Shown one piece after another: positions 2,194 to 42,176 of a DNA stretch of 42,621 nt. The stretch covers positions 1 through 42,621 of the forward strand of contig CAMKLG010000025.1 in the NCBI GenBank assembly GCA_946413585.1, in the 5' to 3' direction. This stretch comes from an uncultured Bacteroidales bacterium (GTDB lineage: Bacteria > Bacteroidota > Bacteroidia > Bacteroidales > WCHB1-69). The notes under the pieces were generated by a model. It saw only the letters and a program-made list of their open reading frames with translations. It had not been told where the DNA came from and ran no database searches. The position numbers and the translations under genes were made by a program. Position 1 is the first letter of the stretch. Every line of letters begins with the position of its first letter.

Positions 2194-4476
2194 ATGCAGA
2201 AACAGCCGTTGGCAGAGATCCTTCGCCCGCACACGCTTGAGGGCTACATCGGTCAGGAGCACCTGATGGGTGAGGGGGCGGTGTTGCGCACGGCCATCGA
2301 GAGCGGCAACATCCAGTCGATGATCTTCTGGGGACCGCCGGGCGTGGGCAAAACGACTCTCGCCCTGTTGATTGCGCAGTCCATCGATGCGGAGTTTTTC
2401 ACCCTCAGCGCCATCAGCAGCGGCGTGAAGGATATCCGCGAGGTCATCGACAAGGCCAAGAAGTCCGAACGGCGCTGTATCCTCTTTATCGACGAAATCC
2501 ACCGTTTCTCCAAGTCGCAGCAGGATTCGTTGCTCGGCGCGGTGGAACAGGGCGTGGTAACCCTCATCGGCGCCACCACCGAAAACCCCTCCTTCGAGGT
2601 GATTTCCCCGCTGCTTTCGCGTTGCCAAGTCTATGTGCTGAAGGGACTTTCGAAAGATAATCTCGAACAACTGTTGCAGACCGCCATCCAGTACCTGGAA
2701 GGACAGATGAACTGCAAAATCAAACTGGAGAACACGGAGGCCTTGTTGCGCATCTCCGGCGGTGACGCGCGCAAACTACTGAATGCCATAGAGTTGGTAT
2801 CATGGATGACCCCGCCCGTGGATGGTGTCATCACCCTCTCCCGCGAACAGATCATCCATGTTATCCAGCAGAATTTAGCACTCTACGACAAAAAAGGCGA
2901 GCAACATTACGACATCATCTCCGCCTTTATCAAGTCGTTGCGCGGCAGCGACCCCAACGCGGCGGTCTATTGGATGGCCCGGATGCTCGTGGCCGGCGAA
3001 GACCCGCTCTTCATCGCCCGGCGCATGGTGATTCTCGCTTCCGAAGACATCGGCAACGCCAACCCCAACGCGTTGCTGTTGGCCAACAACTGCTTCCAGG
3101 CGGTGAACGTCATCGGGATGCCCGAAGCGCGGATTGTGTTGTCGCAAACCGCTGTTTATCTGGCTTCTTCGCCCAAAAGCAACGCCTCCTACATGGCCAT
3201 CGACAATGCCATCGCGCTTGTCAAGCAGACTGGCGACCTGCCCGTGCCGATGCACATCCGCAATGCCCCGACCAAACTGATGAAGGAACTTGGCTACCAC
3301 AAGGGCTATCAATACGCCCATGATTATGAACACAACTTCGTGAACCAAGAGTTCTTGCCCGAACAGATTGCTGGCACCAAACTCTACGAACCGCAGAACA
3401 ATCCGCGAGAGAATGAACTCCGAAGGTATCTGAAAAGTTGCTGGAACGAGAAATATCGCTACGTGATGCTGCTCTTGGTGGCTCTGACTTTTTTTTTTAA
3501 GATAACCTTCGCCCAAGATTACCATTTTTCACAGTTTTATCTGAATCCTACAGGCACAAACCCTTCTCTGACCGCCGCATTCGACGGGGTTGTGCGTGGG
3601 GGAGTGATCATGCGGTCGCAATGGCTCGCGGTAACGAAACCCTTTATGACCTTGGGCGCGGAGGTGGATGGTGCCGTTTATAAAAACCACCGTCGGCAGG
3701 AACTTATAGGCATCGGCCTTACGTTTAACGGTGACAAGTCTGGCGACGTGAACTACCAGTCGGCGCAAGCCATCCTTTCGCTATCGTATATCAAGAACAT
3801 CGGTCGCCACAGCCGTCACAAAATTGGATTGGGACTTTATGGTGGCATTATCAACAACCATTTCGATATGGATCTAGCCACTTGGGATAACCAGTTCTCA
3901 GGTGGTGTGTTTTATCCGTATCTGCCTAGTGGTGAGAATATTGAGACGATCAATCGGTTGTATGCCGACTTTGGGGTAGGGGCGTTTTGGGGGTATTTGC
4001 CATCCAAAACCATGCTGTTTCGGTTGGCAGTGAGCGCCTCGCACATTAACCAACCGTATTATGGATTTGGCGAGTCCCAAGCACGCTTGCCGATTAAATA
4101 TATCGCTCATTTTTACTCGCAATTTGCTATCAATCGAGAAGTTTCGCTTTCCCCAATGTTGTATCTCTCTTGGCAGCGCACCTTTAGCGAGTATCTGTTA
4201 GGATGTAATGTTGAGTACTTCAAGAAGAAAAACAGTTATACAACCTTGTTCACCTTGGGAGGAGGTCTCTTCTATAGATGGAATGATGCGCTGATTTTCA
4301 ATGGGTTCGTGAGTTGGCAGAACCTTCGCTTTTCGCTTGCCTACGACGTGAACGTGTCACCGTTTGTGGTGGCCACTCATGGGCGCGGCGGCATGGAGGT
4401 TGCCATTTCCTATATCTTCAAGAAGCGGACGATAACGAGGGCGGGCAAAGAACCGTGCCCGTATGATATTATGTGA
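2194..4476 (+). CDS. rarA: RarA AAA+ ATPase fused in frame to a PorP/SprF-type outer membrane protein
   Basis: The frame is uninterrupted for 760 codons, but it joins two unrelated proteins. Residues 1-424 are a full-length RarA/MgsA: Walker A GPPGVGKTT (about 48-56), Walker B ILFIDEIHR, sensor ATTENPSFE, then the tetramerisation and C-terminal domains (PNAAVYWMARML, ASEDIGNANP). RarA is a cytosolic ATPase that acts at stalled replication forks. Residues 425-760 start with a hydrophobic signal-like segment and match PorP/SprF proteins of the T9SS. A cytosolic ATPase cannot sensibly share a chain with an exported beta-barrel, so the fusion probably reflects loss of one stop codon. At 3464-3466 a TGA in the +1 frame overlaps the ATG at 3466 (TGATG). 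One base fewer before it would restore a normal coupled stop/start. Sequencing error, a real mutation or programmed coupling are all possible. Confidence 0.85.
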   Translation: MQKQPLAEILRPHTLEGYIGQEHLMGEGAVLRTAIESGNIQSMIFWGPPGVGKTTLALLIAQSIDAEFFTLSAISSGVKDIREVIDKAKKSERRCILFIDEIHRFSKSQQDSLLGAVEQGVVTLIGATTENPSFEVISPLLSRCQVYVLKGLSKDNLEQLLQTAIQYLEGQMNCKIKLENTEALLRISGGDARKLLNAIELVSWMTPPVDGVITLSREQIIHVIQQNLALYDKKGEQHYDIISAFIKSLRGSDPNAAVYWMARMLVAGEDPLFIARRMVILASEDIGNANPNALLLANNCFQAVNVIGMPEARIVLSQTAVYLASSPKSNASYMAIDNAIALVKQTGDLPVPMHIRNAPTKLMKELGYHKGYQYAHDYEHNFVNQEFLPEQIAGTKLYEPQNNPRENELRRYLKSCWNEKYRYVMLLLVALTFFFKITFAQDYHFSQFYLNPTGTNPSLTAAFDGVVRGGVIMRSQWLAVTKPFMTLGAEVDGAVYKNHRRQELIGIGLTFNGDKSGDVNYQSAQAILSLSYIKNIGRHSRHKIGLGLYGGIINNHFDMDLATWDNQFSGGVFYPYLPSGENIETINRLYADFGVGAFWGYLPSKTMLFRLAVSASHINQPYYGFGESQARLPIKYIAHFYSQFAINREVSLSPMLYLSWQRTFSEYLLGCNVEYFKKKNSYTTLFTLGGGLFYRWNDALIFNGFVSWQNLRFSLAYDVNVSPFVVATHGRGGMEVAISYIFKKRTITRAGKEPCPYDIM
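3466..4476 (+). CDS. PorP/SprF family type IX secretion membrane protein (probable internally started product)
   Basis: This 336-residue frame lies in phase at the end of the rarA frame. It begins MLLLVALTFFFKITFAQ, a signal-peptide-like segment ending at the A-Q common in Bacteroidota, followed by DYHFSQFYLNPTGTNPSLTA, the typical PorP/SprF start. The remainder is alternating beta-strand sequence rich in Gly and aromatics, ending in a strand-like GGMEVAISYIFKK. PorP/SprF proteins are outer membrane components that support T9SS secretion or attach cargo at the surface; genomes carry several paralogs. The signal segment is odd: it has no basic n-region and has a Lys in the middle, next to a run of ten T (3489-3498) that could hide a length error. 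The next gene encodes a propeller/OmpA-like protein, a usual partner of this family. Confidence 0.75.
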   Translation: MLLLVALTFFFKITFAQDYHFSQFYLNPTGTNPSLTAAFDGVVRGGVIMRSQWLAVTKPFMTLGAEVDGAVYKNHRRQELIGIGLTFNGDKSGDVNYQSAQAILSLSYIKNIGRHSRHKIGLGLYGGIINNHFDMDLATWDNQFSGGVFYPYLPSGENIETINRLYADFGVGAFWGYLPSKTMLFRLAVSASHINQPYYGFGESQARLPIKYIAHFYSQFAINREVSLSPMLYLSWQRTFSEYLLGCNVEYFKKKNSYTTLFTLGGGLFYRWNDALIFNGFVSWQNLRFSLAYDVNVSPFVVATHGRGGMEVAISYIFKKRTITRAGKEPCPYDIM

Positions 4477-4564
4477 TTTGTGATGTGTGATTTGTGATGT
4501 GTGATTTGTGATGTGTGATGTGAACCTTAAACCTTAAACTTTGAACCTTGAACTTTGAACCTTG
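4474..4564. repeat. Heptamer array of 13 units overlapping the porP-like stop codon
   Basis: Thirteen contiguous 7-bp units fill 91 bp: seven of TGATTTG/TGATGTG (4474-4522), then six of AACCTTA/AACTTTG/AACCTTG (4523-4564). The first TGA is the stop codon of the upstream gene. The array ends 27 bp before the ATG of the next gene. Confidence 0.9.
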
Positions 4565-4591
4565 AACTATTATCCTGAAACATAAAACCTA

Positions 4592-6785: not shown

Positions 6786-6786
6786 G

Positions 6787-6814
6787 AGGGTTTAGAGTTT
6801 ATGGTTTAGGGTTA
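6787..6814. repeat. Four-unit heptamer array (AGGGTTT type)
   Basis: AGGGTTT, AGAGTTT, ATGGTTT, AGGGTTA in tandem, directly upstream of the PAP2 start codon on the minus strand. The same TTTAGGG-like unit recurs at 10887-10956 and 41054-41095. Confidence 0.8.
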
Positions 6815-6851: not shown

Positions 6852-6852
6852 G

Positions 6853-6923: not shown

Positions 6924-6938
6924 TTGATTTTGACGCGG

Positions 6939-6946
6939 CAAAGATA
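6939..6946 (-). promoter_or_regulatory. -7 promoter box for tRNA-Cys
   Basis: The minus strand reads TATCTTTG, matching TAnnTTTG, 16 bp before the tRNA 5' end. Confidence 0.6.
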
Positions 6947-10870: not shown

Positions 10871-10956
10871 TGGTTTGTTGGTTTGTTGGTTTAGGGTTTA
10901 GGGTTTAGAGTTTAGGGTTTAAGGTTTAGGGTTTAAGGTTTAGGGTTTAAGGTTTT
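10871..10956. repeat. Telomere-like GGGTTTA heptamer array, ten units plus flanking octamers
   Basis: After GGTTTGTT octamers, ten contiguous heptamers (GGGTTTA, AGGTTTA, GAGTTTA, TGGTTTA) fill 10887-10956. The array lies between the lipoprotein stop and the FadL-like start. It resembles plant telomeric TTTAGGG only in sequence; the setting is intergenic. Confidence 0.9.
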
Positions 10957-10979
10957 AGATTCGGTATTCCGTAGTAATA

Positions 10980-10998
10980 ATTATGAATTATGAATTAT
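10980..10998. repeat. ATTATGA heptamer remnant at the lipoprotein stop codon
   Basis: Two exact ATTATGA units (10980-10993) and a partial third; the stop codon of the lipoprotein gene (10995-10997, minus) lies in the third. Confidence 0.6.
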
Positions 10999-15081: not shown

Positions 15082-15183
15082 ATTCTGTTATGAACGATGA
15101 CTATATATTAAACTACTTCCTTGAGCAGCCCCGCTAGGGGCAAGAGCATGGTAGCCAGGGGTGAGCGTGGCGAAACCCCTGGG
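15082..15183. repeat. Composite hairpin element, copy 1
   Basis: A leader (ATTCTGTTATGAACG, later CTTCC) is followed by GCCCC-GCTA-GGGGC (15128-15141) and then by a second stem CCAGGGGT/ACCCCTGG (15155-15162/15175-15182). The leader and first hairpin closely match copy 3 at 30788, and the second hairpin matches the layout in copies 2 and 4. Confidence 0.75.
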
Positions 15184-15207: not shown

Positions 15208-15272
15208 TTGGTCGATGAATATTGGTCGATGAATATTGGTCGATGAATATTGGTCGATGAATGGTCGATGAA
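15208..15272. repeat. 14-bp tandem repeat (TTGGTCGATGAATA), four copies and a partial
   Basis: Copies at 15208, 15222, 15236 and 15250 are near identical; the unit is two heptamers long. A truncated copy (GGTCGATGAA) follows. Candidate ATG codons for the next gene lie within or just after it. Confidence 0.9.
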
Positions 15273-17239: not shown

Positions 17240-17267
17240 TTAGTAGTTAACAGTTAGTAGTTAGTAG
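17240..17267. repeat. TTAGTAG heptamer array, four units
   Basis: TTAGTAG, TTAACAG, TTAGTAG, TTAGTAG in tandem, 10 bp after the PorE-like stop codon. Confidence 0.85.
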
Positions 17268-17283
17268 TTATCGGGGAGTACGA

Positions 17284-17373
17284 TTGTTACAACCTTAAAT
17301 ATTTAAAACCCCTTCCAAAAAGGGCTGAAAGCCCGACCTGTGTTAGCCCAGGGTGAACGTAGTGAGCCCTGGG
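17284..17373. repeat. Composite hairpin element, copy 2
   Basis: Leader GTTACAACCTTAAATATTTA, then CTTCCAAAAAGGGCTGAAAG with a GGGC/GCCC stem (17322-17334), then CCCAGGG/CCCTGGG (17347-17353/17367-17373). It is very similar to copy 4 at 31721. Confidence 0.8.
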
Positions 17374-17390
17374 ATTTTTGTGCGATGTTA

Positions 17391-17544
17391 CGATGAACGG
17401 TTGACGATGAACGGTTGGCGATGAACGGTTGACGATGAACGGTTGGCGATGAACGGTTGGCGATGAACGGTTGGCGATGAACGGTTGGCGATGAATGATT
17501 TGCGATGGACGGTTGGCGATGGACGGTTGGCGATGAATGATGAA
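17391..17544. repeat. 14-bp minisatellite, eleven copies
   Basis: Eleven contiguous 14-mers of CGATGAACGGTTGG (variants ending GA, GGACGG, AATGATTTG) fill exactly 154 bp. It is the longest array in the window and lies in the 870-bp gap before the giant gene. Confidence 0.95.
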
Positions 17545-17648: not shown

Positions 17649-17752
<104 letters not shown>

Positions 17753-17952
17753 ATTGTACCTGTAACATTCCACCCTCCCGTATCGTATAACCAAGAAAAG
17801 CCCAAATACTATGTAAAATATACGGTTCATAAAAGGTCTGATTGGTGTTAATAACCTGTTGATAATTTTTTTAGCATGTTTGTTTATCGGTAAATTATTG
17901 ATAATAAATACATTATCGATAATTTCAAAAAAAATCGAAAAAAATAAGATGA

Positions 17953-24000: not shown

Positions 24001-27000
24001 AACGACTACACTTCTGAATATACCTTCAATACGGTCTTCACCGGCCTCCAGGATGGTATTTACCAAGTGTTGGTTCGCGATACCAATACCGCATGCGTCT
24101 ATACCTCTAACAATGTTGAAGTTGAGAAGATTGCTAACGATATTACCATCACTCCTACCATTACTGCTGACCACGCTTGTGAAGGCGGTACACACGATGG
24201 TACTCTCTCTGTCGTTGCTACTACTACTACTTTCGACAATCCTTACTTCATGTACAAGTTCCAACAAGATGCTGATTACTCTACCACTTCTTCTTGGACT
24301 GGCTTGAACAGCTCTACCAATTATCACGTTTCTGCTATTGATACCGTTTCTGGTTGTACGGTTGATTCTATCTTCACCATTCCTTTGGAGAACGTTTGTG
24401 CTCCTATTATCACCATCAATGGAAAACACAAATTCTGTTTGAACGAAGAGAATGCTCAAATCTGTGCAACTGCTACCAATAACACTGACGTTTGTCCTGA
24501 AGGCAACTATCAATTCATGTGGGTTATCAGATGTCACCACGACACTGTTTACAACCAATGTGTCGATGTGAACACCTCTTCTGTCCACAACTGTAACTAT
24601 GATCTCTATGTGAAGGATCTTAACACCGGTTGTGTTTCTAACGCTACCTTCGAAGTTGAAATCATGCCTATCAATCAGGTTAACTTCACTATTAACCATG
24701 CTCCTTTCTATGCTGATCCTAGAACTTATGAACATTGTGTTGCTGATTCCGTTTGGATTGGTGTCCAAAAGGATAAATGGGTGAGCGTGTTGTGGTCTAA
24801 CAGCTACGTTACTCCGGATTCAAAGAAACCTCTTGATCTCGAGTTCTGCGTGCCTGCAAACACCAACAATCCTAACCACTTGTACACCTACTGTGTGGAT
24901 GCTATCGACAGCAACGGTTGTCCTGCTCGTAGCGAGATTAACCTCTGGGGTAATCCTGTCCCGAGAACAACTGTTCAAGATACTTCTTGCTTCGAGTTCA
25001 GATTTGAAAATGAAGTCATCCTTTACAGCGATGAAGTCACTTATCCTATCACTCGTACGAAGACCTTCCCTCGCGTTGATAACCATCATTGCGATAGCAT
25101 TGTTACTCATGAAATCGTAATCCTGCCTCATGTTCATGCTAACTTCGACACTGTGGATGAAATGTTGACTCATGTTTATTGTGCTCCTACCGATATCCTC
25201 AGTGCTATGAGAGATTCAGTGAAGTATGATCATGGTACTTTGGAAGTTCAGATTCGTCGTAACAATAATTGGGAGACATTCACCAATTTGAACAACTTGA
25301 CCATCAATTATGCTGACTCTACCTTCCGCTTCCATGTCTATAACACTTGCGAAAGCATTACGAAGGAGTTCCAGATTTCTATGGACAAGGCTCCGCAAAT
25401 TGATACCTTCCAGTTGGATACTTACTATTGTGCTTCTTCTCAAGCTATCTTCAAAGCTACTGTTTCTGAGTATAGCAAGCTTCATAATGGATCTACCTCC
25501 AGCACTTATGTGAAGATGTATTTCGAGAATGACGAAGATAATCCTTTCACTTGTCAGAATCCTACTAACAATGTGACGGATAGATTACAGAAATTCTCCT
25601 TCTCTTATACTCCGACTATGGCCGATAATGGTAGAACTATTATCACGAAAGTTTGGAACAACTGCTCAACGGTTACTCATTCTCAAGTTCTCGTTGTTGA
25701 TACTACTTACATCAATATCTCTAACGATACGATTTGTGAGGGTGACGTTTTGGACTTTGCAAGTATTCTTGGTAGCCAAGCTTCTAACTATACCGATTTG
25801 GTTGCTCACTTGACTGTTAGTGGTAACACCACCGATTATCAACCTGGTTCTACTCTTGGTATGACTTATAATGGTGCTACTTTCTATTTCACTGGCCATG
25901 GCAAGTGTGGTAACATCACCAGCGACACTGCAATCCTCGTTGTGAATCCGTTACCAGTTCTTACGGTTAACGATCACTATGCTGATCTCTGTATTGCACA
26001 AGCTGCTGATTCCATTGCACGCTGCGTTAGCACGATGTATGCTGATACTACTTGCTGGTTGTATCTTGATCCTACTCTTGATACTATTTGGCAAGAGACC
26101 TTTAACTCTTCAATTCCAGCTACTTGGAAGAAATATAAATTTGCTATGGGTAATGGATGGACCGTTAACGGTTCTGCAGCTTATAGTGCAGCTTACAATG
26201 GTAACAATCGATCAAATGTCAACAACTGGCTCTTCACGCCTGCTATTGATGTTCAAGGTAATATGACATTAACTTATGATGTCAAAAAGAATAATTATAG
26301 CAGTGGCTTTTATAATGTGTATGTTTTAACTGCAGATACGGTTAATACACATGCTACTGCTGTGTTTAGCGAACAGCCTCCGTATACGGGTTATCAGAAT
26401 CGCTCGATCGATTTGTCTTCTTATGCTGGACAGCAAGTGTATGTCGTATTCCATCATATAGCTGATTCATATGGTCAGAGCTTGTTCATAGACAATGTTA
26501 CTCTCAAGCAAGCTGGTCATCTTGTTCCTGTGAAGAATGTTGCCGCATTGGTTGATTCTATCAAGAGCATGCCTCAAGCAGATGTTTACTACTATGCCGC
26601 TAACGGTTGTCAAGAGTTGACGAAGAAAGTCGGTACGTTCCGCATCCTCGATACTGTTAAACTTACCGCTTCTAACATCAGCGTATGCCCGAATGATGAT
26701 CTTTCAGACATCAGTCTTTCTCTCACCGCTACTATTACTGACTATGGTAATTACAGAACCGATGAGATTAAGCCTGTTGCAGTTGGCAATGATGGTAATC
26801 TCTATGATTTGACCAGCCATGTGGCTCTTACCACTGTGATGAAGAATGGTGTGATCAGAATCGTTCCTACTGCTACCAATGCTCAGCAACCTATTGATTT
26901 CTGCACTATTGACACGGCTAAAGCTACGATTACTGTCCTTACCAACGATTTCAAACAAGATACGCTCCAGAAGGCTTGCGATGCTACTGAATTCGCAAAC

Positions 27001-28809
27001 TTCATCAAGGCTGCTCCTGTTTGGACGGGTAGTGTATCTGTACAAACCGATATTGATCACCAATTCTGGACTGTTTCTTACTTAGATAACCAAACCGTTA
27101 AATCTAAAGTTATCACTACGGATTCCATTATGAAACAAGGAAGACACATTTCTGTCCATTACACATGGATTACCGATTGTGGTGATACTCTTAGAACTTC
27201 TGAAAAGAATCTTCAATTCTATGTCAACCCTGTTGCTACGATTGTTCCTGACACCGTTTACAAGTGTTCTGGCGATACCTTGTTCATGAACGAGATCACC
27301 TTGACTGTCACGGATCCTGATCAAATTGCTGAAGATACCACTTGGACGCTTGATGGCGCTGCATTCACTGGCGAATACATCGTTGTCACTGAAGACGTCA
27401 ATGGTTCTATCCTGAAGGCTACTGTTGGTACTGAATGTGCGGATGACTTCGATTCTGTTGTGATTATCATGAATCCTCTGCCTGTTGTCGAAGTTACTGG
27501 TCCTGCTAAGGCTTGTTCTGGTGAGCAGGTTAGATTCGAGGCTACTCCTGGTTTCGTCTCCTACACCTTCACTGTGAACGGTGTTGAGACCACCACCGAG
27601 GCTCCTGTTGATAATCCTCAAGCTACTGTTCCTGCAAATGTCCTCTACGTGACTGTCTATGCTGATGGCGTTGAGTTCACGGAAGTGAATGCACTTGTTG
27701 AGAACGAGAATGGTTGTAAAGCTGAAGCTGCAATTCCTGCTTCTGTCCGCGTGACCAACATGCCTGAGTTCATGTTCTTCGATGCTACTGGTATCGCAAA
27801 TGCTGCTCAAAACAATGGCCAATACGATCCTGCTGATGATACTCACCACTTCACCGCTACCACGGGTACGGGTCTTGAGTACGTCTGGATGGTCGGCGAC
27901 CAATGTTACGATCCTGACTTGTTGGTCTATGTTGAATATGACATCTATTTCAACGGTCGTAAGCTTACCAACGATTCTATTGATGACTGGTATCTGATCC
28001 CGCAGACCTACAACTATCATGGTCAATCACCTCGTTGGGTCACCTCTAACCAAATTAACTGGTTGTCACAACAAGGTCAACCTCGTAGCGACATTGCTTA
28101 CTACAACTACGCTATCGGTGATCCTTCTATCGTGATCAACGAGAACGAGTACGGTGGTAACCACTATCCGAACACCAACATGGGCTTCACCAACTCTAAC
28201 GTCTTCGACGATTTGTGGATGCACTTCCTCGCTAAACGTCCTGTGACTCAAAATGTCGCTCCGTTCCGTAGAGAAGGTGAATACAGAATTGTCTTCAGAC
28301 TCCTTGCTACGAGCAATCCTAACGACTTCATGCATGAATACACTCATATCAATGAGGATGGTACTACTCAACGTCTGCACATCGGTGGTTCTAATGCAAA
28401 TGCTAATTTCGCTACCATTACGCTGTTAGCTATGGATTCCATCACCATTGATGTTACAGGTGACGACATCATCGATCCTCAAGTCGTGAACCAGAGCCAA
28501 GCTCCTGAACTTGCTCCTGCTTTGGTGGTTGACGAGACTGTTGTTCCTGACATGGAAGTCTGGCCGAACCCGGCACCTGCTACCGAGACTACTTTGAAGG
28601 CTCGCGTTCACAACATGGCTGGTAACGCTACTGTTACTTTGACCAACCTGAACGGTAAGCAAGTCTATAATGGTAATATCTACATTGACAACGATAACTA
28701 CTACTTCGAATTTGGTGTTACCAACCTCTCTGTGGGTTCATACATCATGACCGTCCGTACCAACGACGCTGTCCTCACGAAGAAAGTCATCGTTACTGTT
28801 GCACGCTAA
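18100..28809 (+). CDS. Giant T9SS-secreted modular adhesin-like protein (3569 aa)
   Basis: Intact 10.7-kb gene. Residues 1-24 are a signal peptide ending FSMRAQ. Residues about 602-774 form a beta-rich module (IGTSTSNQNLPL to TKFTVQ) of a type seen in Bacteroidales surface proteins. A PKD-like unit is near 1327. Eight SprB-like units, 81-95 residues each, run from about 1418 to 2090; each opens with a Cys shortly before an [N/D]G and closes with a Cys near VxDxxxxC. Residues about 2666-2805 are a choice-of-anchor J/cleaved-adhesin module (NNWLFTPAIDV, YAGQQVYVVFHH). Residues 3486-3569 are a T9SS type A sorting domain (VWPNPAP to VIVTVAR). The family is surface-attached or released after outer membrane passage, in adhesion or gliding. 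Codons are strongly biased to GCT, CCT, ACT/ACC and GGT, a sign of high expression. The ligand is unknown. Confidence 0.9.
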   Translation: MKKLLSICFLSILLGLMSFSMRAQSSGFWIENLNPVTVDGVVNAPDGSGTLVLNNTLNVARVDGVDLYELHFCTDVPDSLKISVDWLLYRNGELVNGNLSDYAEIDMYTWYPELNYEGQGMAIHWVGGRLPNAFGYCDQPVQPDMFSGYDCGHAPTNYPGALQADYAAPQSVFNALGELVPSQGLYSLYTEAFDYFYAKFFQYGRTVVQIKWKQVGNYSLVMRIRERLGGTDWYNAYYNNDEHLLAGGHMSCCGQVLASDSIHYLVNGEFSKEVCQDAVPYTYGNPPYDFDRTMEDTNVVFGHIDPLHCDIFVVDSIIDFHFFVRHKPVIRVATHIDTLCSCDPYIPEDLFGVTLDPVDLDVASDTSVQWYHWGARGYDWYENAAPYGDMTRRTANDTTYVYIVRQVNSYNNFNEEIVCEGNADTMYLTIKRIEAPELSPNLDVCLETIDSSSVHHATSTHDARCSTVTRWYTKLTTGITTQSSSYIDLSSLVYVGDDFPINLMQYAPTTNVDKKVTFYAVSYNDSTGCMSKYFSRYEIQYHQTPVLTKVTSPADINCPGDTVTMKVAINNTPSQTDPLYTYFWDGVTNVNVDGTIVPPVSYDEVTIGTSTSNQNLPLKTDSKYSYSQQIFYPTELEAGIITKMAFQTSGAITRNNVEIYLNTTDVNNFSSNSVWVEQGEKVFTGTLKSTAAGWIEIALDEPYQYDASKNLVVTVYNKSNSEAGYHYFYTTSTSSNSSMYASGSNSSFNPASTSTRKTVKSYRSNTKFTVQSVVPGTQAKNQEAYFNIPDTAKCNDQYSSYVYVVDGNGCVSQPDTFTYGVGVLSAPRVENVPTVPAKIYVCELNADRIPAYTTIEDVRQAGIRVIDECDKGMTVTHTDAMFRGVCHDTLVRVYTIHNLCDSTVSFTLTYISYDTVKPVFVRDTMELPLVQLRPLPGGNCTYNSPDSMDFVNAVAAMVYDNCTDSAFLMSTLEFFWENTDKSPINDTNIFRVNNHLTVTAVIHDICGNYSDSTLVIYLDLPDTMWISGDPITLPTVCEGVTPANLVFDTTLIHPDAFVGPYLPYSYEWSEVNGREVTFTNKYAKETGINPVGSGDFIFQLKVTDANGCEALSAYYFLHVNPIPNINVTEIPYNGATSPYCPTYGWMTVGVFDANTGNRYPASANMSYTWAGEGVNIFSTFDTTIVNIVPDSCDHDYMAIVTVADPIGCSATDTVIFPVRDTEGPIILPGVLHDTVLVANNNCTFTVPNYRPFLNVSNVTSKCGYSPTKILETYVQTPAAGTLINKDTTTIKITLTTPCGKDSVYTVYAFRPDDYVTVSITVDGDSVCENDPTYIQNGITLTATAQNGTAPYTYAWTKGASSTVIGTDATLTVRDTNGVYTYHVAVKDAHNCPVGDESDVTVWFKGAQPITQVTPNRLCGDGEYNGTLTILEAPTGYTYKYQGQTKISDNASHEPTLYNTVYFANLQPGTFTLTVTTVDPENCETTYDITIPNATAEVDTVVATPLAVSNCLDNNGAITIERQAGYTYYFSTDGGTTYAVTELTVIPNLSSGTYWFYRVNDATNCESPRNSVYVPYNAPSFDFTINSVNNNSYCYDNQADGSFKLATAGVNYVVTNPDNDTIYQGASATVNGLYAGTYTIVGVNDANGCVKTKTQPITNAKRLYPSATLATTPNRYCDPTQANGTITVTKKSTSPAFTYTVLLGTDTIQPANYASLYADTYTVNMITDKGCTGTDSKAVGNNQVNPTVTATAKTNSTCIPEDFDGKITLTVTNSSAAGPGFTYMLWQFNADTTIQTNGTFTGLASGRYNYTVVSQYGCVKEAYKDVDQYKVPALDLDSTANFMCEPTATKPGDGTITIMAPRNSNTKHYHYKYYDAAGHEYDVPFDEPFVYTLYWLANGKYRVTALELETNCMAEDSIYVPLDRYNVTINPNATGNKYCTKNFNGTITVNANSTNPDARLQYKVVGVNNDYTSEYTFNTVFTGLQDGIYQVLVRDTNTACVYTSNNVEVEKIANDITITPTITADHACEGGTHDGTLSVVATTTTFDNPYFMYKFQQDADYSTTSSWTGLNSSTNYHVSAIDTVSGCTVDSIFTIPLENVCAPIITINGKHKFCLNEENAQICATATNNTDVCPEGNYQFMWVIRCHHDTVYNQCVDVNTSSVHNCNYDLYVKDLNTGCVSNATFEVEIMPINQVNFTINHAPFYADPRTYEHCVADSVWIGVQKDKWVSVLWSNSYVTPDSKKPLDLEFCVPANTNNPNHLYTYCVDAIDSNGCPARSEINLWGNPVPRTTVQDTSCFEFRFENEVILYSDEVTYPITRTKTFPRVDNHHCDSIVTHEIVILPHVHANFDTVDEMLTHVYCAPTDILSAMRDSVKYDHGTLEVQIRRNNNWETFTNLNNLTINYADSTFRFHVYNTCESITKEFQISMDKAPQIDTFQLDTYYCASSQAIFKATVSEYSKLHNGSTSSTYVKMYFENDEDNPFTCQNPTNNVTDRLQKFSFSYTPTMADNGRTIITKVWNNCSTVTHSQVLVVDTTYINISNDTICEGDVLDFASILGSQASNYTDLVAHLTVSGNTTDYQPGSTLGMTYNGATFYFTGHGKCGNITSDTAILVVNPLPVLTVNDHYADLCIAQAADSIARCVSTMYADTTCWLYLDPTLDTIWQETFNSSIPATWKKYKFAMGNGWTVNGSAAYSAAYNGNNRSNVNNWLFTPAIDVQGNMTLTYDVKKNNYSSGFYNVYVLTADTVNTHATAVFSEQPPYTGYQNRSIDLSSYAGQQVYVVFHHIADSYGQSLFIDNVTLKQAGHLVPVKNVAALVDSIKSMPQADVYYYAANGCQELTKKVGTFRILDTVKLTASNISVCPNDDLSDISLSLTATITDYGNYRTDEIKPVAVGNDGNLYDLTSHVALTTVMKNGVIRIVPTATNAQQPIDFCTIDTAKATITVLTNDFKQDTLQKACDATEFANFIKAAPVWTGSVSVQTDIDHQFWTVSYLDNQTVKSKVITTDSIMKQGRHISVHYTWITDCGDTLRTSEKNLQFYVNPVATIVPDTVYKCSGDTLFMNEITLTVTDPDQIAEDTTWTLDGAAFTGEYIVVTEDVNGSILKATVGTECADDFDSVVIIMNPLPVVEVTGPAKACSGEQVRFEATPGFVSYTFTVNGVETTTEAPVDNPQATVPANVLYVTVYADGVEFTEVNALVENENGCKAEAAIPASVRVTNMPEFMFFDATGIANAAQNNGQYDPADDTHHFTATTGTGLEYVWMVGDQCYDPDLLVYVEYDIYFNGRKLTNDSIDDWYLIPQTYNYHGQSPRWVTSNQINWLSQQGQPRSDIAYYNYAIGDPSIVINENEYGGNHYPNTNMGFTNSNVFDDLWMHFLAKRPVTQNVAPFRREGEYRIVFRLLATSNPNDFMHEYTHINEDGTTQRLHIGGSNANANFATITLLAMDSITIDVTGDDIIDPQVVNQSQAPELAPALVVDETVVPDMEVWPNPAPATETTLKARVHNMAGNATVTLTNLNGKQVYNGNIYIDNDNYYFEFGVTNLSVGSYIMTVRTNDAVLTKKVIVTVAR
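22348..24366 (+). other. SprB-like tandem domain region of the giant protein
   Basis: Opening cysteines are at residues about 1418, 1510, 1593, 1676, 1757, 1843, 1938 and 2027, each followed by a short loop and NG or DG (for example YCYDNQADG, YCDPTQANG, TCIPEDFDG, YCTKNFNG). Each unit closes with a Cys after a G-x-Y-x-x-x-V strand, so each may hold one disulfide. DNA identity between units is low, so they are old duplications. Confidence 0.75.
26092..26518 (+). other. Choice-of-anchor J / cleaved-adhesin module
   Basis: The translated block has NGWTVNG, NNWLFTPAIDV, LTYDVKK, YNVYVLTAD, IDLSSYAGQQVYVVFHHI and LFIDNVTL in the order seen in gingipain/haemagglutinin cleaved-adhesin domains. Its codons include TTA, TCA, ATA and TCG, which are scarce in the flanking parts of the gene. 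Confidence 0.75.
28555..28806 (+). other. T9SS type A C-terminal sorting domain
   Basis: The final 84 residues begin VWPNPAP and end KKVIVTVAR, with TLTNLNGKQV and LSVGSYIMTV between, the usual seven-strand pattern recognised by the T9SS and removed by the PorU-type sortase. Confidence 0.92.
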
Positions 28810-28866: not shown

Positions 28867-28882
28867 AATTAAGAATCAAGAG

Positions 28883-28945
28883 TGATGAGTGATTGGTGAT
28901 GAGTGATGAGTGATTGGTGATGAGTGATTGGTGATGGGTGATGAG
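28883..28945. repeat. TGATGAG/TGATTGG heptamer array, nine units
   Basis: Nine contiguous heptamers over exactly 63 bp (TGATGAG x5, TGATTGG x3, TGATGGG x1), between the terminator and the ABC exporter gene. Confidence 0.92.
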
Positions 28946-28990
28946 TGGGGGAGGAGGAATTTTGTATGTTATTTTTAAATCTTGAATAGG

Positions 28991-30757: not shown

Positions 30758-30787
30758 GGGGGATAGGGGATAGGGAATAGGGAATAG
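30738..30787. repeat. Heptamers AGTTAGT (three) and GGGATAG/GGAATAG (four)
   Basis: 30738-30758 encodes the end of the ABC exporter and holds its stop TGA. After one base, GGGATAG, GGGATAG, GGAATAG, GGAATAG fill 30760-30787. Confidence 0.85.
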
Positions 30788-30862
30788 AATTCTGTTACGA
30801 ACGTAGATTATATATGAAACTGTTTCCATAAGCAGCCCCGCTAGGGGCAAGAAGCTCGGTAG
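30788..30862. repeat. Composite hairpin element, copy 3
   Basis: Leader with TCTGTTACGAACG, then TTTCCATAAGCAGCCCC, GCTA loop and GGGGC (stem 30835-30839/30844-30848), then AAGAAGCTCGGTAG. The second hairpin seen in copies 1, 2 and 4 is missing. It lies between two heptamer arrays. Confidence 0.8.
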
Positions 30863-30866
30863 GTGT

Positions 30867-30996
30867 GATGAATGATGAATGATGAATGATGAATTATGAA
30901 TGATGAATTATGAATGATGAATTATGAATGATGAATTATGAATGATGAATTATGAATTATGAATGATAAATGATTGATAAATGATGAATGATGAAT
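30867..30996. repeat. GATGAAT/TATGAAT heptamer array, fourteen exact-period units plus diverged ones
   Basis: GATGAAT and TATGAAT fill 30867-30964 without a break in the 7-bp phase; GATAAAT, GATTGAT and two more GATGAAT follow. The whole 270-bp gap before trmB is repeat sequence. Confidence 0.95.
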
Positions 30997-31027
30997 GATC
31001 GATTGTTGTACATTGTAAATTGAAAAT

Positions 31028-31699
31028 ATGTCGAAGCATAAATTAGCGAGGTTCGCGGAGAACGCGACGTTTGAGAATTTGTTTCAGCACACGGAATATG
31101 ATAGGGCAGGGAAGGAGTTCCCGTTGCGGGGTCGTTGGAAGGAGGATTATTTCCATAACGACCGGCCCATTGTGCTGGAGTTAGGGTGTGGCAAGGGAGA
31201 ATACACGATAGCCATGTCGAAGCGTTTTCCCGAGCGTAATTACATTGGTATTGACCGGAAGGGGGCGCGGTTGTGGCGCGGCTGCAAGGATGCTATAGAG
31301 CAGGAATTGTCGAATGTGGCGTTCTTGCGCATCACTATTGACCATATCGGCCATTATTTTGCCCCTGGCGAGGTGGATGAGATTTGGGTGACCTTCCCGG
31401 ACCCGCAGATCAAGAAGGAGCGCAAGCGCCTGGTGGGTCCGCACTTTGTCAACGATTACTATCGCCAAATTTGGCCCGCAAACGGCGGTATTTTGCATTT
31501 GAAGTCCGACAGCGACTTCTTGTATGAGTACCTTCTCGAAACCGCGCAAGAACAACGCTGGGAGCTTCTGGAGAACATTCCAGACGTCTATGCGGGCGGT
31601 GTTGACCCGTTGCTCACGGAAGTTCAGACTTTTTACGAGAAGATGTGGTTGGCGAAAGGAAAGACGATTCACTACGTGAAGTTAGCAGTTAGAAGTTAG
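31028..31699 (+). CDS. trmB: tRNA (guanine-N7-)-methyltransferase TrmB
   Basis: 223 residues. It makes m7G46 in the variable loop of tRNAs using S-adenosylmethionine. SAM-binding LELGCGKGEYTIAMS (about 50-64), YIGIDRKGAR, and the signature VTFPDPQIKKERKRL (about 122-136) are present; the usual P-W-P reads P-Q-I. The C-terminal T-x-Y/F-E-K motif is TFYEKMW. The last five residues (LAVRS) and the stop are encoded by GTTAGCA/GTTAGAA heptamers, an extension that the core fold does not need. Confidence 0.93.
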   Translation: MSKHKLARFAENATFENLFQHTEYDRAGKEFPLRGRWKEDYFHNDRPIVLELGCGKGEYTIAMSKRFPERNYIGIDRKGARLWRGCKDAIEQELSNVAFLRITIDHIGHYFAPGEVDEIWVTFPDPQIKKERKRLVGPHFVNDYYRQIWPANGGILHLKSDSDFLYEYLLETAQEQRWELLENIPDVYAGGVDPLLTEVQTFYEKMWLAKGKTIHYVKLAVRS

Positions 31700-31715
31700 C
31701 AGTTAGTAGTTGGAG
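31681..31715. repeat. GTTAGCA heptamer array, five units, running out of trmB
   Basis: GTTAGCA, GTTAGAA, GTTAGCA, GTTAGTA, GTTGGAG. The trmB stop TAG is in the third unit. Confidence 0.9.
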
Positions 31716-31720
31716 TGGTA

Positions 31721-31821
31721 GTACGAACGTTAAAGCCCTAAAATATTTTAAAATATCTTCCAAAAAGGGCTGAAAGCCCGACCACGTGTCAGCCTAGGGT
31801 GAGCGCTAGCGAGCCCTAGGG
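31721..31821. repeat. Composite hairpin element, copy 4
   Basis: GTACGAACGTTAAAGCCC leader, CTTCCAAAAAGGGCTGAAAG with GGGC/GCCC stem (31767-31779), then CCTAGGG/CCCTAGG (31793-31799/31814-31820). A stretch of at least 24 nt beginning CTTCCAAAAAGGGCTG is identical to copy 2. Confidence 0.8.
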
Positions 31822-31870
31822 GAATGGTGGATGGTGTAGGGGCGCGGGATGAATGGTGGTTGATGAATGG

Positions 31871-31934
31871 CGATGATACGATGACACGATGATACGATGA
31901 CACGATGACACGATGATATGATGATACGATGAAT
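31871..31934. repeat. Octamer array CGATGATA/CGATGACA, eight units
   Basis: Eight contiguous 8-bp units; one of the few arrays here whose period is not 7. Diverged GATGAATGG words continue to 32000. Confidence 0.85.
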
Positions 31935-32026
31935 GGTGGTCGATGGATGTCGATGACATGATGAATGGTGATCGATGAATGGCGATGACGCGATGAATGG
32001 GGGCGCGGTGGATGGCGTGTGACGAA

Positions 32027-32054
32027 ATTATGAATTATGAATCATGAATTGTGA
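32027..32054. repeat. ATTATGA heptamer array, four units, abutting the gcvT promoter
   Basis: ATTATGA, ATTATGA, ATCATGA, ATTGTGA. The region where the -33 element should lie is inside this array. Confidence 0.8.
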
Positions 32055-32064
32055 ATTATTTTTG

Positions 32065-32072
32065 TATTTTTG
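32065..32072 (+). promoter_or_regulatory. -7 box for gcvT
   Basis: TATTTTTG followed by CAGGTT, the same words as at the giant gene promoter, 40 bp before the gcvT ATG. Confidence 0.6.
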
Positions 32073-32111
32073 CAGGTTCAAATTTTGTCACAAACAATAA
32101 AGAAAATCAAT

Positions 32112-33206: not shown

Positions 33207-33234
33207 TTGTTGCGGAAATTTGCGGAAAATGCGC

Positions 33235-33271
33235 AAAAGTGCGGAAATCTATGAGGTTTCCGCACTTTTTT
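33235..33271 (+). terminator. Intrinsic terminator of gcvT
   Basis: AAAAGTGCGGAAA (33235-33247) pairs perfectly with 33257-33269 across a 9-nt loop, ending in a T-run. Two heptamers GTGAATA follow at 33272-33285. Confidence 0.88.
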
Positions 33272-33296
33272 GTGAATAGTGAATAGTGTGTAAACC

Positions 33297-33324
33297 GTAG
33301 AGACGCGCCATGGCACGTCTCTAC
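33297..33324. repeat. GTAGAGACG palindromic element, copy A
   Basis: GTAGAGACG (33297-33305) pairs with CGTCTCTAC (33316-33324), with an inner GCC/GGC stem. The same palindrome occurs at 35730-35757. Confidence 0.75.
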
Positions 33325-33330
33325 AGACAA

Positions 33331-33368
33331 GGGTGTATGCGATACACCAGGGTGTATCGCATACACCC
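33331..33368. repeat. Perfect 17-bp inverted repeat ending at the kinase-like stop codon
   Basis: GGGTGTATGCGATACAC (33331-33347) and its exact complement (33352-33368) flank CAGG. The repeat stops one base before the minus-strand stop codon at 33371-33369. It may protect or end that transcript; no T-run follows. Confidence 0.85.
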
Positions 33369-38033: not shown

Positions 38034-38041
38034 TATATTGG

Positions 38042-38136
38042 TTTCAAGATTCAGGTTTCAAGTAGAATCGCACCTGAAACCTGAAACTTGAAACCTGAAA
38101 CTTGAAACTTGAAACCTGAAACTTGAAACCTGAAAC
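38042..38136. repeat. Inverted heptamer array around an 11-bp centre, copy 1
   Basis: Three units TTTCAAG, ATTCAGG, TTTCAAG (38042-38062), then TAGAATCGCAC (38063-38073), then nine units of CTGAAAC/TTGAAAC (38074-38136), which are the complement of the left units. It lies 9 bp after the ddh stop codon. The centre is nearly identical to that at 42124-42134. Confidence 0.95.
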
Positions 38137-38171
38137 CAAATTGTATCTTCTCTGACATAAAACAATATCCG

Positions 38172-38732
38172 ATGCCTTTCCGTGTCGCCATAATATCGTT
38201 GTTCTGTTGCCTGTTCTGCGCAGGTTTGTCCGCCCAGACGTTTTCGCTGCGGCAGATAAGCGACACGTGTAGCGTGCTGATGCTGACCACGGATTCTATG
38301 TCGGACGAGTGGCTGCTGCCCCATCCTGTCTATCAGTTCCGCACCGGCGACGTGGACGGCGACGGCGTGGAGGAGGCCTTGGTGGGCGTGGTGAAGTCCA
38401 CACGGTTCTATCCCGAAAAAGGAAACCGGCTGTTTGTTTTCAAGAACCGCGACGGAAGGGTTCGCCCGCTGTGGATGGGATCGCGATTGGGCGAAGAGAT
38501 TGTGGATTTCCGCGTGGCGGACGGCAAATTAGTCAGCATCGAACGATGCCGGAACGGACAATACAACCTGGACGAATGGGAATGGTCGAGGTTCGGGCCC
38601 CGTTTTTCGCGATATATCCTGACAAACGCAACATTGGAAGAAGTCAATCAAACATTCAATCAATATGAAAAGAATACTAATCACAGCCATGCTGTTGATG
38701 CTCATCCTCATGGGATGGAGCCAACAAACTGA
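38172..38732 (+). CDS. Exported hypothetical protein with DGDG calcium-type loop
   Basis: 186 residues with signal peptide MPFRVAIISLFCCLFCAGLSAQ. TGDVDGDGVEEALVGVVK (about 58-75) is an FG-GAP/dockerin-like Asp-rich loop that may bind calcium, followed by LFVFKNRDGRVRPLWMGSRL. It is exported. Its last 22 codons overlap the next gene by 68 bp, and that tail (His- and Asn-rich) has no folded look. A natural stop may have been lost. Translation is probably coupled to the DUF3160 gene, and the two products may act together. Confidence 0.65.
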   Translation: MPFRVAIISLFCCLFCAGLSAQTFSLRQISDTCSVLMLTTDSMSDEWLLPHPVYQFRTGDVDGDGVEEALVGVVKSTRFYPEKGNRLFVFKNRDGRVRPLWMGSRLGEEIVDFRVADGKLVSIERCRNGQYNLDEWEWSRFGPRFSRYILTNATLEEVNQTFNQYEKNTNHSHAVDAHPHGMEPTN

Positions 38733-41049: not shown

Positions 41050-41053
41050 GGTT

Positions 41054-41095
41054 GGTTTAAGGTTTAAGGTTTAGGGTTTAAGGTTTAGGGTTTAG
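41054..41095. repeat. GGTTTAA/GGTTTAG heptamer array, six units
   Basis: GGTTTAA, GGTTTAA, GGTTTAG, GGTTTAA, GGTTTAG, GGTTTAG without a break, 4 bp after the DUF3160 stop. Confidence 0.9.
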
Positions 41096-41121
41096 AGGGT
41101 TAAAAGGTTATGGGTTAAACA

Positions 41122-41160
41122 ATTTCCTTGAACAGCCCCCACAGGGGCAAGAGCTCGGTA
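41122..41160. repeat. Composite hairpin element, copy 5 (short)
   Basis: TTTCCTTGAACAGCCCC, CACA loop and GGGGC (stem 41135-41139/41144-41148), then AAGAGCTCGGTAG. It ends 3 bp before the ATG of the CapA-family gene, so its hairpin would lie at that gene's ribosome binding site. Confidence 0.8.
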
Positions 41161-41163
41161 GAA

Positions 41164-42078
41164 ATGTCGATCGTTAACGTTTATTGTGTGTTTATATTTG
41201 CGGTGCTGATCTCCTTTCAGGTCGGTCAGGCGCAACCGGTGCGGCTGTCTGGAGGGGACACGCTGACGGTGGCCTTCACGGGCGACATCCTCCTTGACCG
41301 GGGTGTGCGTCGGCAGATAGAAAGCCACGGCATAGAGAGCATCTTCGATGCGAGGGCGGATTCCCTGTTCCGCAATTCCGACCTTGTGGTGGGGAATCTG
41401 GAATGCCCGGCCACCGCGCTTAAAACGCCGATGATGAAGAAGTTCGTGTTCCGTGCCGAGCCGGAGTGGTTGGAGGCCTTGCGTGCCCACGGCTTCACCC
41501 ATCTCAATCTGGCCAACAACCATTCGGTGGACCAAGGTCGGCGCGGGTTAGTCGATACATGGCACAACGTGGAGCGATACGGCATGACGGCCGTCGGGGT
41601 GGGCAACACGATGGCGGAGGCCGCGCAGCCCGTGCTGTTGGCGGAGCATCCCCGGAGGGTCTGGTTGATCGCCTCGCTGCAAATGCCGTTGGAGCATTTC
41701 CCGTATCTCCCCGAAGCACCCTCCGTCAATCAGGAATCCATCGACTCCCTGGTGGTCCGCATCCGTGCGTTGCGCGCAGAGGACAGCACCGCCGTGATTC
41801 TGGTGTCGTTGCATTGGGGACAAGAACACACCTTGGAGCCGACCCCGATGCAGCGCAGTGCCGCCCACCGCTTGATCGATGCCGGTGCCGACGCCCTGAT
41901 CTGCCACCACACCCACACCCTGCAGACCATCGAGTCCTATCGCGGCAAGTGCATCTACTACAGTCTCGGCAACTTCATCTTCGACCAAGACCGGGACATC
42001 AACCGCCGCACGTGTGTTCCGCAGGTGAAGGTCACGCGGGACAGCGTGGTGGTAAGAGATAATCTCCTTAGTATGTAA
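41164..42078 (+). CDS. CapA-family (poly-gamma-glutamate capsule type) metallophosphatase-like protein
   Basis: 304 residues from the ATG at 41164, which gives a signal peptide ending VGQAQ; an earlier in-frame start at 41128 would include the repeat element. The PGA_cap family blocks are LTVAFTGDILLDRGV (about 33-47), DLVVGNLECPAT, THLNLANNHSVDQG, VSLHWGQEHTLEPT, ADALICHHTHTLQ and YYSLGNFIFDQ, which together form the metal site of a calcineurin-like fold. CapA takes part in poly-gamma-glutamate capsule formation in Bacillus, but no capB or capC is here, so a different extracytoplasmic hydrolase role is likely. Confidence 0.85.
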   Translation: MSIVNVYCVFIFAVLISFQVGQAQPVRLSGGDTLTVAFTGDILLDRGVRRQIESHGIESIFDARADSLFRNSDLVVGNLECPATALKTPMMKKFVFRAEPEWLEALRAHGFTHLNLANNHSVDQGRRGLVDTWHNVERYGMTAVGVGNTMAEAAQPVLLAEHPRRVWLIASLQMPLEHFPYLPEAPSVNQESIDSLVVRIRALRAEDSTAVILVSLHWGQEHTLEPTPMQRSAAHRLIDAGADALICHHTHTLQTIESYRGKCIYYSLGNFIFDQDRDINRRTCVPQVKVTRDSVVVRDNLLSM

Positions 42079-42088
42079 GTTCCAATAG

Positions 42089-42176
42089 TTTCAGGATTCA
42101 GGATTCAAGATTCAGGATTCAAGTAGGACCGCACTTGAATCCTGAATCTTGAAACTTGAATCTTGAATCTTGAAAC
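42089..42176. repeat. Inverted heptamer array around an 11-bp centre, copy 2
   Basis: Five units TTTCAGG/ATTCAGG/ATTCAAG (42089-42123), centre TAGGACCGCAC (42124-42134), six units TTGAATC/CTGAATC/TTGAAAC (42135-42176). It lies between convergent genes. Confidence 0.95.

Follow-up and report, generated by a model that had tools for sequence, protein, structure and literature searches.

The stretch of DNA considered here (the window) comprises 42,621 nucleotides of contig CAMKLG010000025.1, contig 25 of 125 in a 2.98-Mb draft genome (87.8 % complete) from an uncultured Bacteroidales bacterium of the WCHB1-69 lineage (assembly GCA_946413585.1). Its genes include those of an ABC transporter, trmB, gcvT and a cytidylate kinase; the labels ABC, gcvT, cytidylate kinase and, below, subtilase derive from Pfam matches, and trmB is our reading of a PF02390 match. 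The gaps between the genes are occupied by tandem arrays of heptamers, and it is these arrays and their relation to a small four-helix bundle (FHB) gene of related genomes that are discussed here. Tracts were detected with Tandem Repeats Finder and a lag-match scan of our own, and are the following:

4472..4567, unstranded: two abutting period-7 arrays, TGTGATTTGTGATG then AACCTTG/AACTTTG, beginning at the end of the open reading frame (ORF) 2194-4476
10888..10955, unstranded: period-7 array GGTTTAG, 9.7 units
10979..10998, unstranded: short period-7 array AATTATG
15208..15262, unstranded: period-14 array TTGGTCGATGAATA, 3.9 units
17245..17270, unstranded: period-7 array AGTTAGT, 15 bp past the end of an OmpA/PD40 gene
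17390..17535, unstranded: period-14 array CGATGAACGGTTGG, 10.5 units
17650..17687, unstranded: period-7 array AATGATG
17721..17755, unstranded: period-7 array ATGAATT
28867..28947, unstranded: period-7 array GAGTGAT/GGTGATT
30759..30787, unstranded: period-7 array GGGAATA/GGGGATA, directly past the ABC transporter gene
30866..30999, unstranded: period-7 array GATGAAT/TATGAAT, 19.6 units, in the ABC-trmB gap
31680..31711, unstranded: period-7 array GTTAGCA, which provides the last codons and the stop of trmB
31871..32000, unstranded: period-8 array CGATGATA/CGATGACA (period 8 over 31871-31932), then degenerate units, in the trmB-gcvT gap
32026..32057, unstranded: period-7 array AATTATG/AATCATG
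33207..33368, unstranded: gcvT-cytidylate kinase gap, whose sole array is a 17-bp GTGAATA tract at 33272-33288
38072..38137, unstranded: period-7 array ACCTGAA/ACTTGAA
41054..41103, unstranded: period-7 array GGTTTAA/GGTTTAG
42090..42174, unstranded: gene-free inverted period-7 pair (arms TTCAGGA and TGAATCT, spacer of 14 bp), with convergent genes on either side

The lag-match scan counts 19 tracts in the window that repeat with period 7 or 14, which bears out the "about twenty" intergenic tracts counted in a sequence-only reading of the same DNA; all seven of the arrays quoted there were found within a few bases of where it had placed them. Eighteen of the 19 overlap called genes over at most 0.2 of their length, and the remaining one (31680-31711, overlap 0.6) runs through the end of trmB. 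The 7-bp period, claimed to be constant, holds for these 19 tracts but not for the period-8 array at 31871-31932. The pair at 42090-42174 is the window's two-armed case without a gene, and is predicted to form a single hairpin of -52.8 kcal/mol.

The prevalence of this period was surveyed in 442,621 bases of the source genome (the window and the first 20 kb of each of the genome's 20 largest contigs, L001-L020), divided into intergenic and coding DNA by a home-made gene caller (88.8 % coding). Since these contigs were sampled from their starts, a contig-end bias is possible. At a lag-match score of at least 14, the 49,590 intergenic bases contain 56 segments of period 7, totalling 2,743 bp, against 0, 0, 1, 3, 0 and 2 segments at periods 4, 5, 6, 8, 9 and 10, and six at period 11; the comparison with periods 5, 6, 8 and 9, by which the sequence-only reading was to be refuted, thus gives 56 against 0-3 and does not refute it. 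Dinucleotide shuffles (n = 5) gave a mean of 0 segments at all periods from 2 to 40, except for 0.2 at period 3, and coding DNA has four period-7 segments per 393,031 bases. In 20 other genomes of the genus, represented by mostly contig-interior stretches (one of them 16.8 kb long), period-7 segments occur in 13 and period 7 is again the commonest. Being tandem 7-bp units, chiefly extragenic and well above chance, the arrays of the window qualify as heptanucleotide simple sequence repeats. Indels of at least 4 bp that separate orthologous loci have lengths divisible by 7 in 20 of 52 cases within or close to arrays, compared with 18 of 156 elsewhere, in 14 locus comparisons which are not independent because some share a locus. 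Array copy number changes by whole units between relatives, as a tendency and not as a rule, and the copying process specific to this period that the sequence-only reading had proposed is supported by these indels.

When the trmB neighbourhood is compared with that of sister species, the same gap is found to carry differing words in different species. In the trmB-gcvT gap of L056, L059 and L090, a small gene is flanked by arrays that share one word and run in opposite directions. The ABC-trmB gap, which in the window contains the 30866-30999 array, harbours an FHB cassette in L090, and the gcvT-cytidylate kinase gap of L051, which encodes a gcvT product 100 % identical to the window's, harbours a complete one, whose inverted arms measure about 139 and 41 bp. 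Sister species therefore have FHB cassettes in three of the gaps that contain arrays in the window (30758-31027, 31700-32111 and 33207-33368). Among 80 loci matched by their gcvT product, from Bacteroidales, Bacteroidetes/Bacteroidia or Lentimicrobiaceae metagenome-assembled genomes, most of them of rumen or gut origin, seven FHB genes were found, six of which are two-armed with an inverted agreement of 6-7/7; some of these copies also belong to the 56-gene set described below.

The FHB protein is about 120 aa long, forms a four-helix bundle, belongs to the 23S rRNA IVP/S23 family (PF05635) and is mostly basic, with isoelectric points (pI) of 7.9-9.5 in five examples. The match to PF05635 reaches 121.5 bits for the L133 copy, and that to TIGR02436 reaches 115.5 bits. 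A structure model (mean pLDDT 91) has its best matches in 2gsc (Xanthomonas XCC0516) and 2rld, at E values of at most 0.002, followed by Avd (4dwl), the accessory protein of diversity-generating retroelements (DGR), and by 8ub7, a complex with the DGR reverse transcriptase, both at E values of 0.007-0.02 and a probability of 1.00. The FHB protein has the same fold as Avd; its match to the Avd profile is weak (25.8 bits against a curated cut-off of 80, E 1e-5). The family is present in all 30 genomes of the genus that were searched, with 2-18 copies each among the matches listed, and the source genome has 12 PF05635 matches in its 2.98 Mb, three of them partial. Of 14 pairs for which dN/dS was computed, the six with a computable dS above 0.07 gave values of 0.03-0.15, which shows purifying selection on the FHB gene; dS was zero or saturated in four others and below 0.07 in the last four, with dN/dS from 0 to 0.53. 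A PADLOC search returned no match. Besides the mobile type, the genus has a longer PF05635 paralogue of about 150-190 aa (L138, L172-L191), usually one per genome among the matches listed and without arms, which is possibly a domesticated form.

For the genus, 56 mobile-type FHB genes with full flanks were scored, an array being counted at a score of at least 10 within 350 bp; L159 and L169, whose flanks are truncated, and L140-L142, which match partially and within longer ORFs, were left out of these counts. A period-7 array lies upstream of 36 of the 56, downstream of 30, on both sides of 25 and on either side of 41, whereas among 307 control genes of the source genome the upstream, downstream and two-sided counts are 55, 53 and 19, and the conserved longer paralogue has an array on either side in one case out of 21. 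By flank homology the 56 genes represent 24 sites, at 20 of which an armed copy occurs. The two-armed cassettes number 25, in 14 flank clusters, and the words of their two arms match in inverted orientation at 6/7 or better in 20 and at 5/7 or better in all 25; permuted pairings, which count related copies as independent, yield a mean of 2.9 at the 6/7 level and a maximum of 9 in 2000. Mean similarity between arm words is 6.0/7 inverted and 3.4/7 direct. Complementarity between the 5' and 3' flanks exceeds the 95th percentile of mis-paired flanks for 43 of the 56 genus genes, for 15 of 30 genes from across the phylum and for none of the 21 paralogues, and over lags 3-24 the strongest lag is 7 in both FHB flank sets (z 42.8 in the genus and 13.0 in the phylum, where lag 24 comes next at 9.9). 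Folding of four cassettes predicted 27-57 pairs between arms. The cassettes thus carry inverted repeats at both ends, as transposons do, and complementary, stem-forming ends like those of an intervening sequence (IVS; 43/56 by the flank test). An ORF of the IVP/S23 family, the other hallmark of an IVS, lies inside the gene-bearing cassettes only, none of which is in the window itself.

Alignments of related copies show arms and gene replaced together at a fixed site within near-identical flanks. At the L131 site, the source genome and G006 share flanks that are 96-99 % identical and an FHB gene that is 66 % identical, with arms of CTTAGA (period 6) in the one and GGCTGTT (period 7) in the other, while relative to G010 the flanks are 85-91 % identical and the gene and 5' arm 99 %; sequence agreement stops, and divergence begins, at the outer array ends. 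G020 and G013 resemble each other by 73 % upstream, 83 % downstream and 99 % in the FHB gene, whose dS is 0.04 compared with 0.72 in the next gene, a pattern that would also fit a recombination tract including some flank (91 % at -400 to -150). The opposite is seen at this site between G007 and G002 (dS 0.22 for the FHB gene, 0.07 for the next gene), the G002 copy being shortened. Decay can be followed in the gap before the subtilase gene, at 30 loci from 30 genomes. Six of them hold intact or near-intact cassettes (L313, L315, L319, L323, L324, L327), and L330 has an FHB copy with an early stop. In L331 and L332 there are 3' stubs of the gene (they align with scores of 46 and 49, where shuffles reach at most 17), the former beside a score-10 AATAGTG array and the latter with a shorter, sub-threshold tract. 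Others have inverted arrays of another word without the gene (e.g., L317, L320, L322) or are array-free (e.g., L321, L325). The series shows a cassette decaying to a gene stub. As to words, FHB proteins at least 65 % identical have a common one (at least 6/7) in 26 of 30 same-site pairs and in 15 of 26 different-site pairs; 13 of these 15 compare the same two site families, so that they amount to about two independent cases; below 65 % identity, under a slightly different site test, a common word was found in 33 of 754 pairs.

The words themselves are not unrelated from locus to locus, as had been supposed from the window. Sixty-four arrays (score at least 14) reduce to 37 distinct oriented words, so that words recur, and 0.89 of these have a neighbour at one substitution, against a mean of 0.59 and a maximum of 0.865 in 200 sets of letter-shuffled words. 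The commonest, GGGTTTA (AGGGTTT), accounts for nine of the 64 arrays, namely 10888-10955 and eight more in the source-genome sample. This word equals the plant telomere repeat; the likeness is probably a coincidence, but such arrays can mislead contamination screens. The G-rich strand contains only 4.7 % C, and 44 of the 64 words contain none, a scarcity inflated by the choice of that strand as the one with G at least equal to C. Orientation depends on position: the plus strand is the G-rich one in 39 arrays against 9 where the left edge of the gap is the nearer, and in 12 against 30 where the right edge is (Fisher p 5.6e-7, with 3 ties). As the direction is alike in all four gene-orientation classes, being weakest at the right edge of gaps between two minus-strand genes (10 against 7), array orientation is set by the gap and not by transcription.

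Beyond the genus, PF05635 was found in 157 of 198 genomes of the phylum. In 20-kb samples, period-7 arrays occur in 7 of 19 FHB-rich and in 0 of 18 FHB-free genomes (p 0.003); of the 60 stretches selected for these and the genus samples, three did not exist and two FHB-free ones were shorter than 5 kb. The pattern TTAGTAG repeated three times, with up to 3 mismatches, is present in 56 of the 157 FHB-bearing genomes and in 3 of 41 FHB-free ones (p 0.0002), the 41 being the 198 minus the 157, with G149 counted among them as it is not listed with a match. Among 72,556 plasmid records, 16 have an FHB match, 15 of them cyanobacterial and one from Gemmatirosa. In the 14 analysed (all but H2 and H10), period-7 arrays flank 11 FHB genes (lag-7 z 19.5), and the arms are inverted above the 95th percentile in seven; elsewhere on four of the plasmids, three arrays in 100 kb predict arrays at 0.8 % of flank sets. 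Some plasmid cassettes lie inside tight gene runs, twice between cas6 and cas4 and once between cas10 and a cmr3-type gene (L302, L303, L304); another sits between nrdB- and nrdA-type genes, on the opposite strand.

These observations point to a likely explanation, in which the heptamer arrays are the end-arms, or the surviving single arms, of IVS-like cassettes sitting between genes. The link of the arrays to cassette arms is very likely, and that most solo arrays descend from cassettes has a somewhat better than even chance. A complete cassette consists of an array, one FHB gene of ~120 aa and the same word inverted. Its arms would pair in the transcript, and as single-stranded DNA, and this pairing would make insertion between genes or in last codons nearly harmless, as in the IVS of rRNA. 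Fold-back copying within the arms would hold both to one word, slippage by 7-base steps would alter copy number and substitution would create new words, while the FHB protein may bind the arms and aid persistence or spread of the cassette. Where the gene was lost, one or both arms would have remained as solo arrays such as those that fill the window. If the arrays are indeed such arms, words would differ by place because different cassettes sit there. Of the interpretation offered by the sequence-only reading, then, period-specific copying stands, while unrelated words do not; inverted arms around an FHB gene could not be seen from the window.

A number of results weigh against the cassette origin. 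Within the genus, 15 of the 56 FHB genes have no period-7 array at a score of at least 10; arms of other periods occur among them (6 in L131, about 9/18 in L135), so that 7 is the commonest unit and not the only one. The lengths of the two arms are uncorrelated (rho 0.18), as are array density and FHB number across 20 genomes of the genus (rho 0.01). Outside the genus, strong period-7 arrays accompany just 4 of the 30 phylum FHB genes, a set formed by the best-scoring gene of each of 30 genomes and not a random draw. The control for TTAGTAG, the same word backwards, is a heptamer word too and matches many genomes, so TTAGTAG is not a special word; FHB-rich and FHB-free genomes moreover differ in lineage, and the genome-level p values ignore phylogeny. 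Over all different-site pairs, the trend of word similarity with protein identity is weak (Mantel 59 of 1000). A recent jump to a new site, with duplication of the target, was not seen; among the best 45 of 165 pairs, those above 77 % nucleotide identity have common flanks. Most arrays of the source genome are not beside an FHB gene, and tblastn over its 442 kb detected one intact FHB gene (L014), one weak match (L003, E 0.04) and no convincing FHB debris, with no relics near the arrays of the window. Inverted arms exceed the 95th percentile in 5 of 57 solo array gaps (2.9 expected; the FHB gap of L014 is left out) and, among the 123 array-free gaps, in 12 (6.2 expected). The first and last arrays of a gap match in inverted orientation at 6/7 or better in only 5 of 23 cases, one of the five being the FHB cassette (permuted mean 1.4; 5 reached in 11 of 2000). 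Finally, the nearest gene end is a 3' end for 60 of 93 arrays and a 5' end for 33, a bias that the cassette model alone does not predict. The idea that solo arrays are intact two-armed miniature inverted-repeat transposable elements was also tried, and is unsupported in the source genome by the count for array gaps given above.

Other accounts of the arrays have to be set against the same evidence. Pure polymerase slippage, by which any intergenic seed would grow by 7 bases (a 7-nt polymerase footprint) with FHB genes there by chance, fits the whole-unit indels (20/52 against 18/156) and could alone maintain the solo arrays, which are mostly one-armed and far from FHB genes; heptamers are also the commonest repeat category in most genomes of the survey by Mrazek et al. 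(2007), as cited in the passages of PMC4679880 drawn on here. It is nevertheless unlikely, predicting neither the inverted same-word arms on either side of a gene (25/25 at 5/7 or better), nor the polarity of solo arrays by gap side, nor the joint change of arms and gene, nor the lack of arrays in FHB-free samples (0/18). The co-location of FHB genes with arrays, and the several words that one gap can hold, could also mean that arrays came first and that FHB genes insert into them. Splitting one array would leave direct words, however, and this order of events is rejected because the words are inverted (6.0/7, against 3.4/7 direct); with the arms of the L131 site differing when the gene differs, in near-identical flanks, its probability is minimal.

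There is a small chance that the arrays are gene-control sites of the start-codon type: they often lie tens of bases from starts or stops, and the protein with the Avd fold is mostly basic (pI 7.9-9.5). Yet words differ between orthologous gaps of sister species, and 3' ends are nearer in 60/93 arrays, unlike what start-codon control would give. That very excess would agree with selection for translation-stop insurance behind genes: as 7 is coprime with 3, a stop-bearing unit closes all frames past the gene, stop codons occur in 52 of 64 arrays on the G-rich strand against 35 of 64 on the other, and several arrays provide the last codons and stop of the preceding gene. However, orientation tracks gap side at 5' ends too, and 33/93 arrays are nearer a 5' end; we hold stop insurance to be very improbable as the reason for the existence of the arrays, although it may account for the tolerance of insertions at gene ends. 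The Avd fold (4dwl, 8ub7) and weak profile match (25.8 bits) could further suggest DGR-like retro-homing, with the FHB protein as the Avd-type partner of a reverse transcriptase. This is equally improbable, given that the reverse transcriptase domain PF00078 has 0 matches in the source draft (87.8 % complete) and is found in 7 of 30 genus genomes, compared with 30/30 for PF05635, and that G021, 99 % complete, has 16 PF05635 matches and no reverse transcriptase.

The gaps of the window contain other dispersed elements besides the arrays. A match to the Rfam Acido-Lenti-1 RNA (41.3 bits) lies between two arrays at 17321-17373, and its hairpin core, GGGCTGAAAGCCC, recurs at 31767 in the trmB-gcvT gap and at 8008 of L004, one other sampled contig. 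A second hairpin motif, CCGCTAGGGG with variants, is present at 30838, where it is followed by CAAGAAGCTCGGTAG, at 15131, at L012 1563 and in the trmB gaps of sister species; copies of this type recur in the orthologous ABC-trmB gap of several of these species beside differing words. Among the coding sequences, ORF 2194-4476 joins a RarA/MgsA-type AAA ATPase to a PorP/SprF type IX secretion protein (Pfam), through fusion or an assembly frameshift, and 18100-28809 is an open frame of 3,569 aa whose match to the type IX C-terminal sorting domain is borderline (26.4 bits against a cut-off of 27).

Heptamer repeats of bacteria are used in strain typing and have been on record for decades without agreement on their cause. 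A tie to one gene family would give them a testable origin and predict which genomes bear them. It would likewise place the S23/IVP protein, so far an rRNA puzzle, at what is likely the core of a wider class of selfish cassettes between genes, seen in three phyla (Bacteroidota, Cyanobacteriota and, on one plasmid, Gemmatimonadota) and even within runs of cas genes. In the open-licence literature, no published tie between heptamer arrays and FHB/S23 genes outside rRNA was found.

Several known systems share part of this organisation. The STRR sequences are heptanucleotide arrays of filamentous cyanobacteria, and of the 16 FHB-bearing plasmid records 15 are cyanobacterial, most of these in filamentous genera. 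REPINs and RAYTs likewise combine short inverted intergenic repeats with a fuller form around a dedicated gene, which is a Y1 transposase in their case and the FHB gene in the cassettes; the source genome has two Y1 transposase genes (PF01797), with no period-7 array within 1.5 kb of either. From DGRs the cassettes differ in the reverse transcriptase, with 0 matches in the source draft and 7/30 in the genus. The S23 protein of Coxiella burnetii is presumably a member of PF05635.

Warrier et al. (2016, PMC4990558, in the passages drawn on here) describe the Coxiella IVS as having tandem heptamers before the S23 ORF, in two or three sets depending on the strain, and a terminal stem of 28 bp. This IVS thus resembles the FHB cassettes in small size, S23-type ORF, complementary stem ends and variable heptamers (PMC4990558), but it is located inside helix 45 of the 23S rRNA and is cut by RNase III in vitro (PMC4990558), whereas the cassettes examined in detail are intergenic, between protein genes and not within a 23S rRNA gene, and have longer tandem arms. 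The intergenic GGGAATC arrays of Xanthomonas are described by Rehm et al. (2015, PMC4692102), a paper which also covers the heptanucleotide repeats of Nostoc. Two nearby sites stand there in convergent orientation in 70 cases (Xcc) and 75 (Xac), a pairing reminiscent of the cassettes, and X. campestris also has the FHB protein XCC0516 (PDB 2gsc); one word dominates in Xanthomonas (PMC4692102), however, where the source genome has dozens. No link to an FHB-type gene was seen in PMC4692102, a paper searched for "S23" (0 occurrences) and not for "four helix bundle".

The TAACTGA arrays of Beggiatoaceae, Cyanobacteria and five Bacteroidetes (MacGregor 2015, PMC4679880) are between-gene heptamers in some of the same phyla, and so contradict the statement, made in the sequence-only reading, that no such system was known in Bacteroidota. 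In the passages of that paper drawn on here, which cite Mrazek et al. (2007) for heptamer abundance and the slippage idea, relatives with the same neighbours are described as having shorter gaps without obvious repeats. The TAACTGA arrays differ in consisting of one word and are read as possible sites of a translational regulator, with a role in rearrangement suggested for Bacteroidetes (PMC4679880). We tentatively propose, at somewhat less than even chances, that the heptamer arrays of bacteria in general (STRR, Xanthomonas GGGAATC, Beggiatoaceae TAACTGA and those described here) could be the arms or debris of one widespread class of cassettes with an FHB gene of the Avd fold, which would move and swap between genomes without a known transposase or reverse transcriptase, and whose ends would follow a 7-base code that renews itself and stays alike on the two arms.

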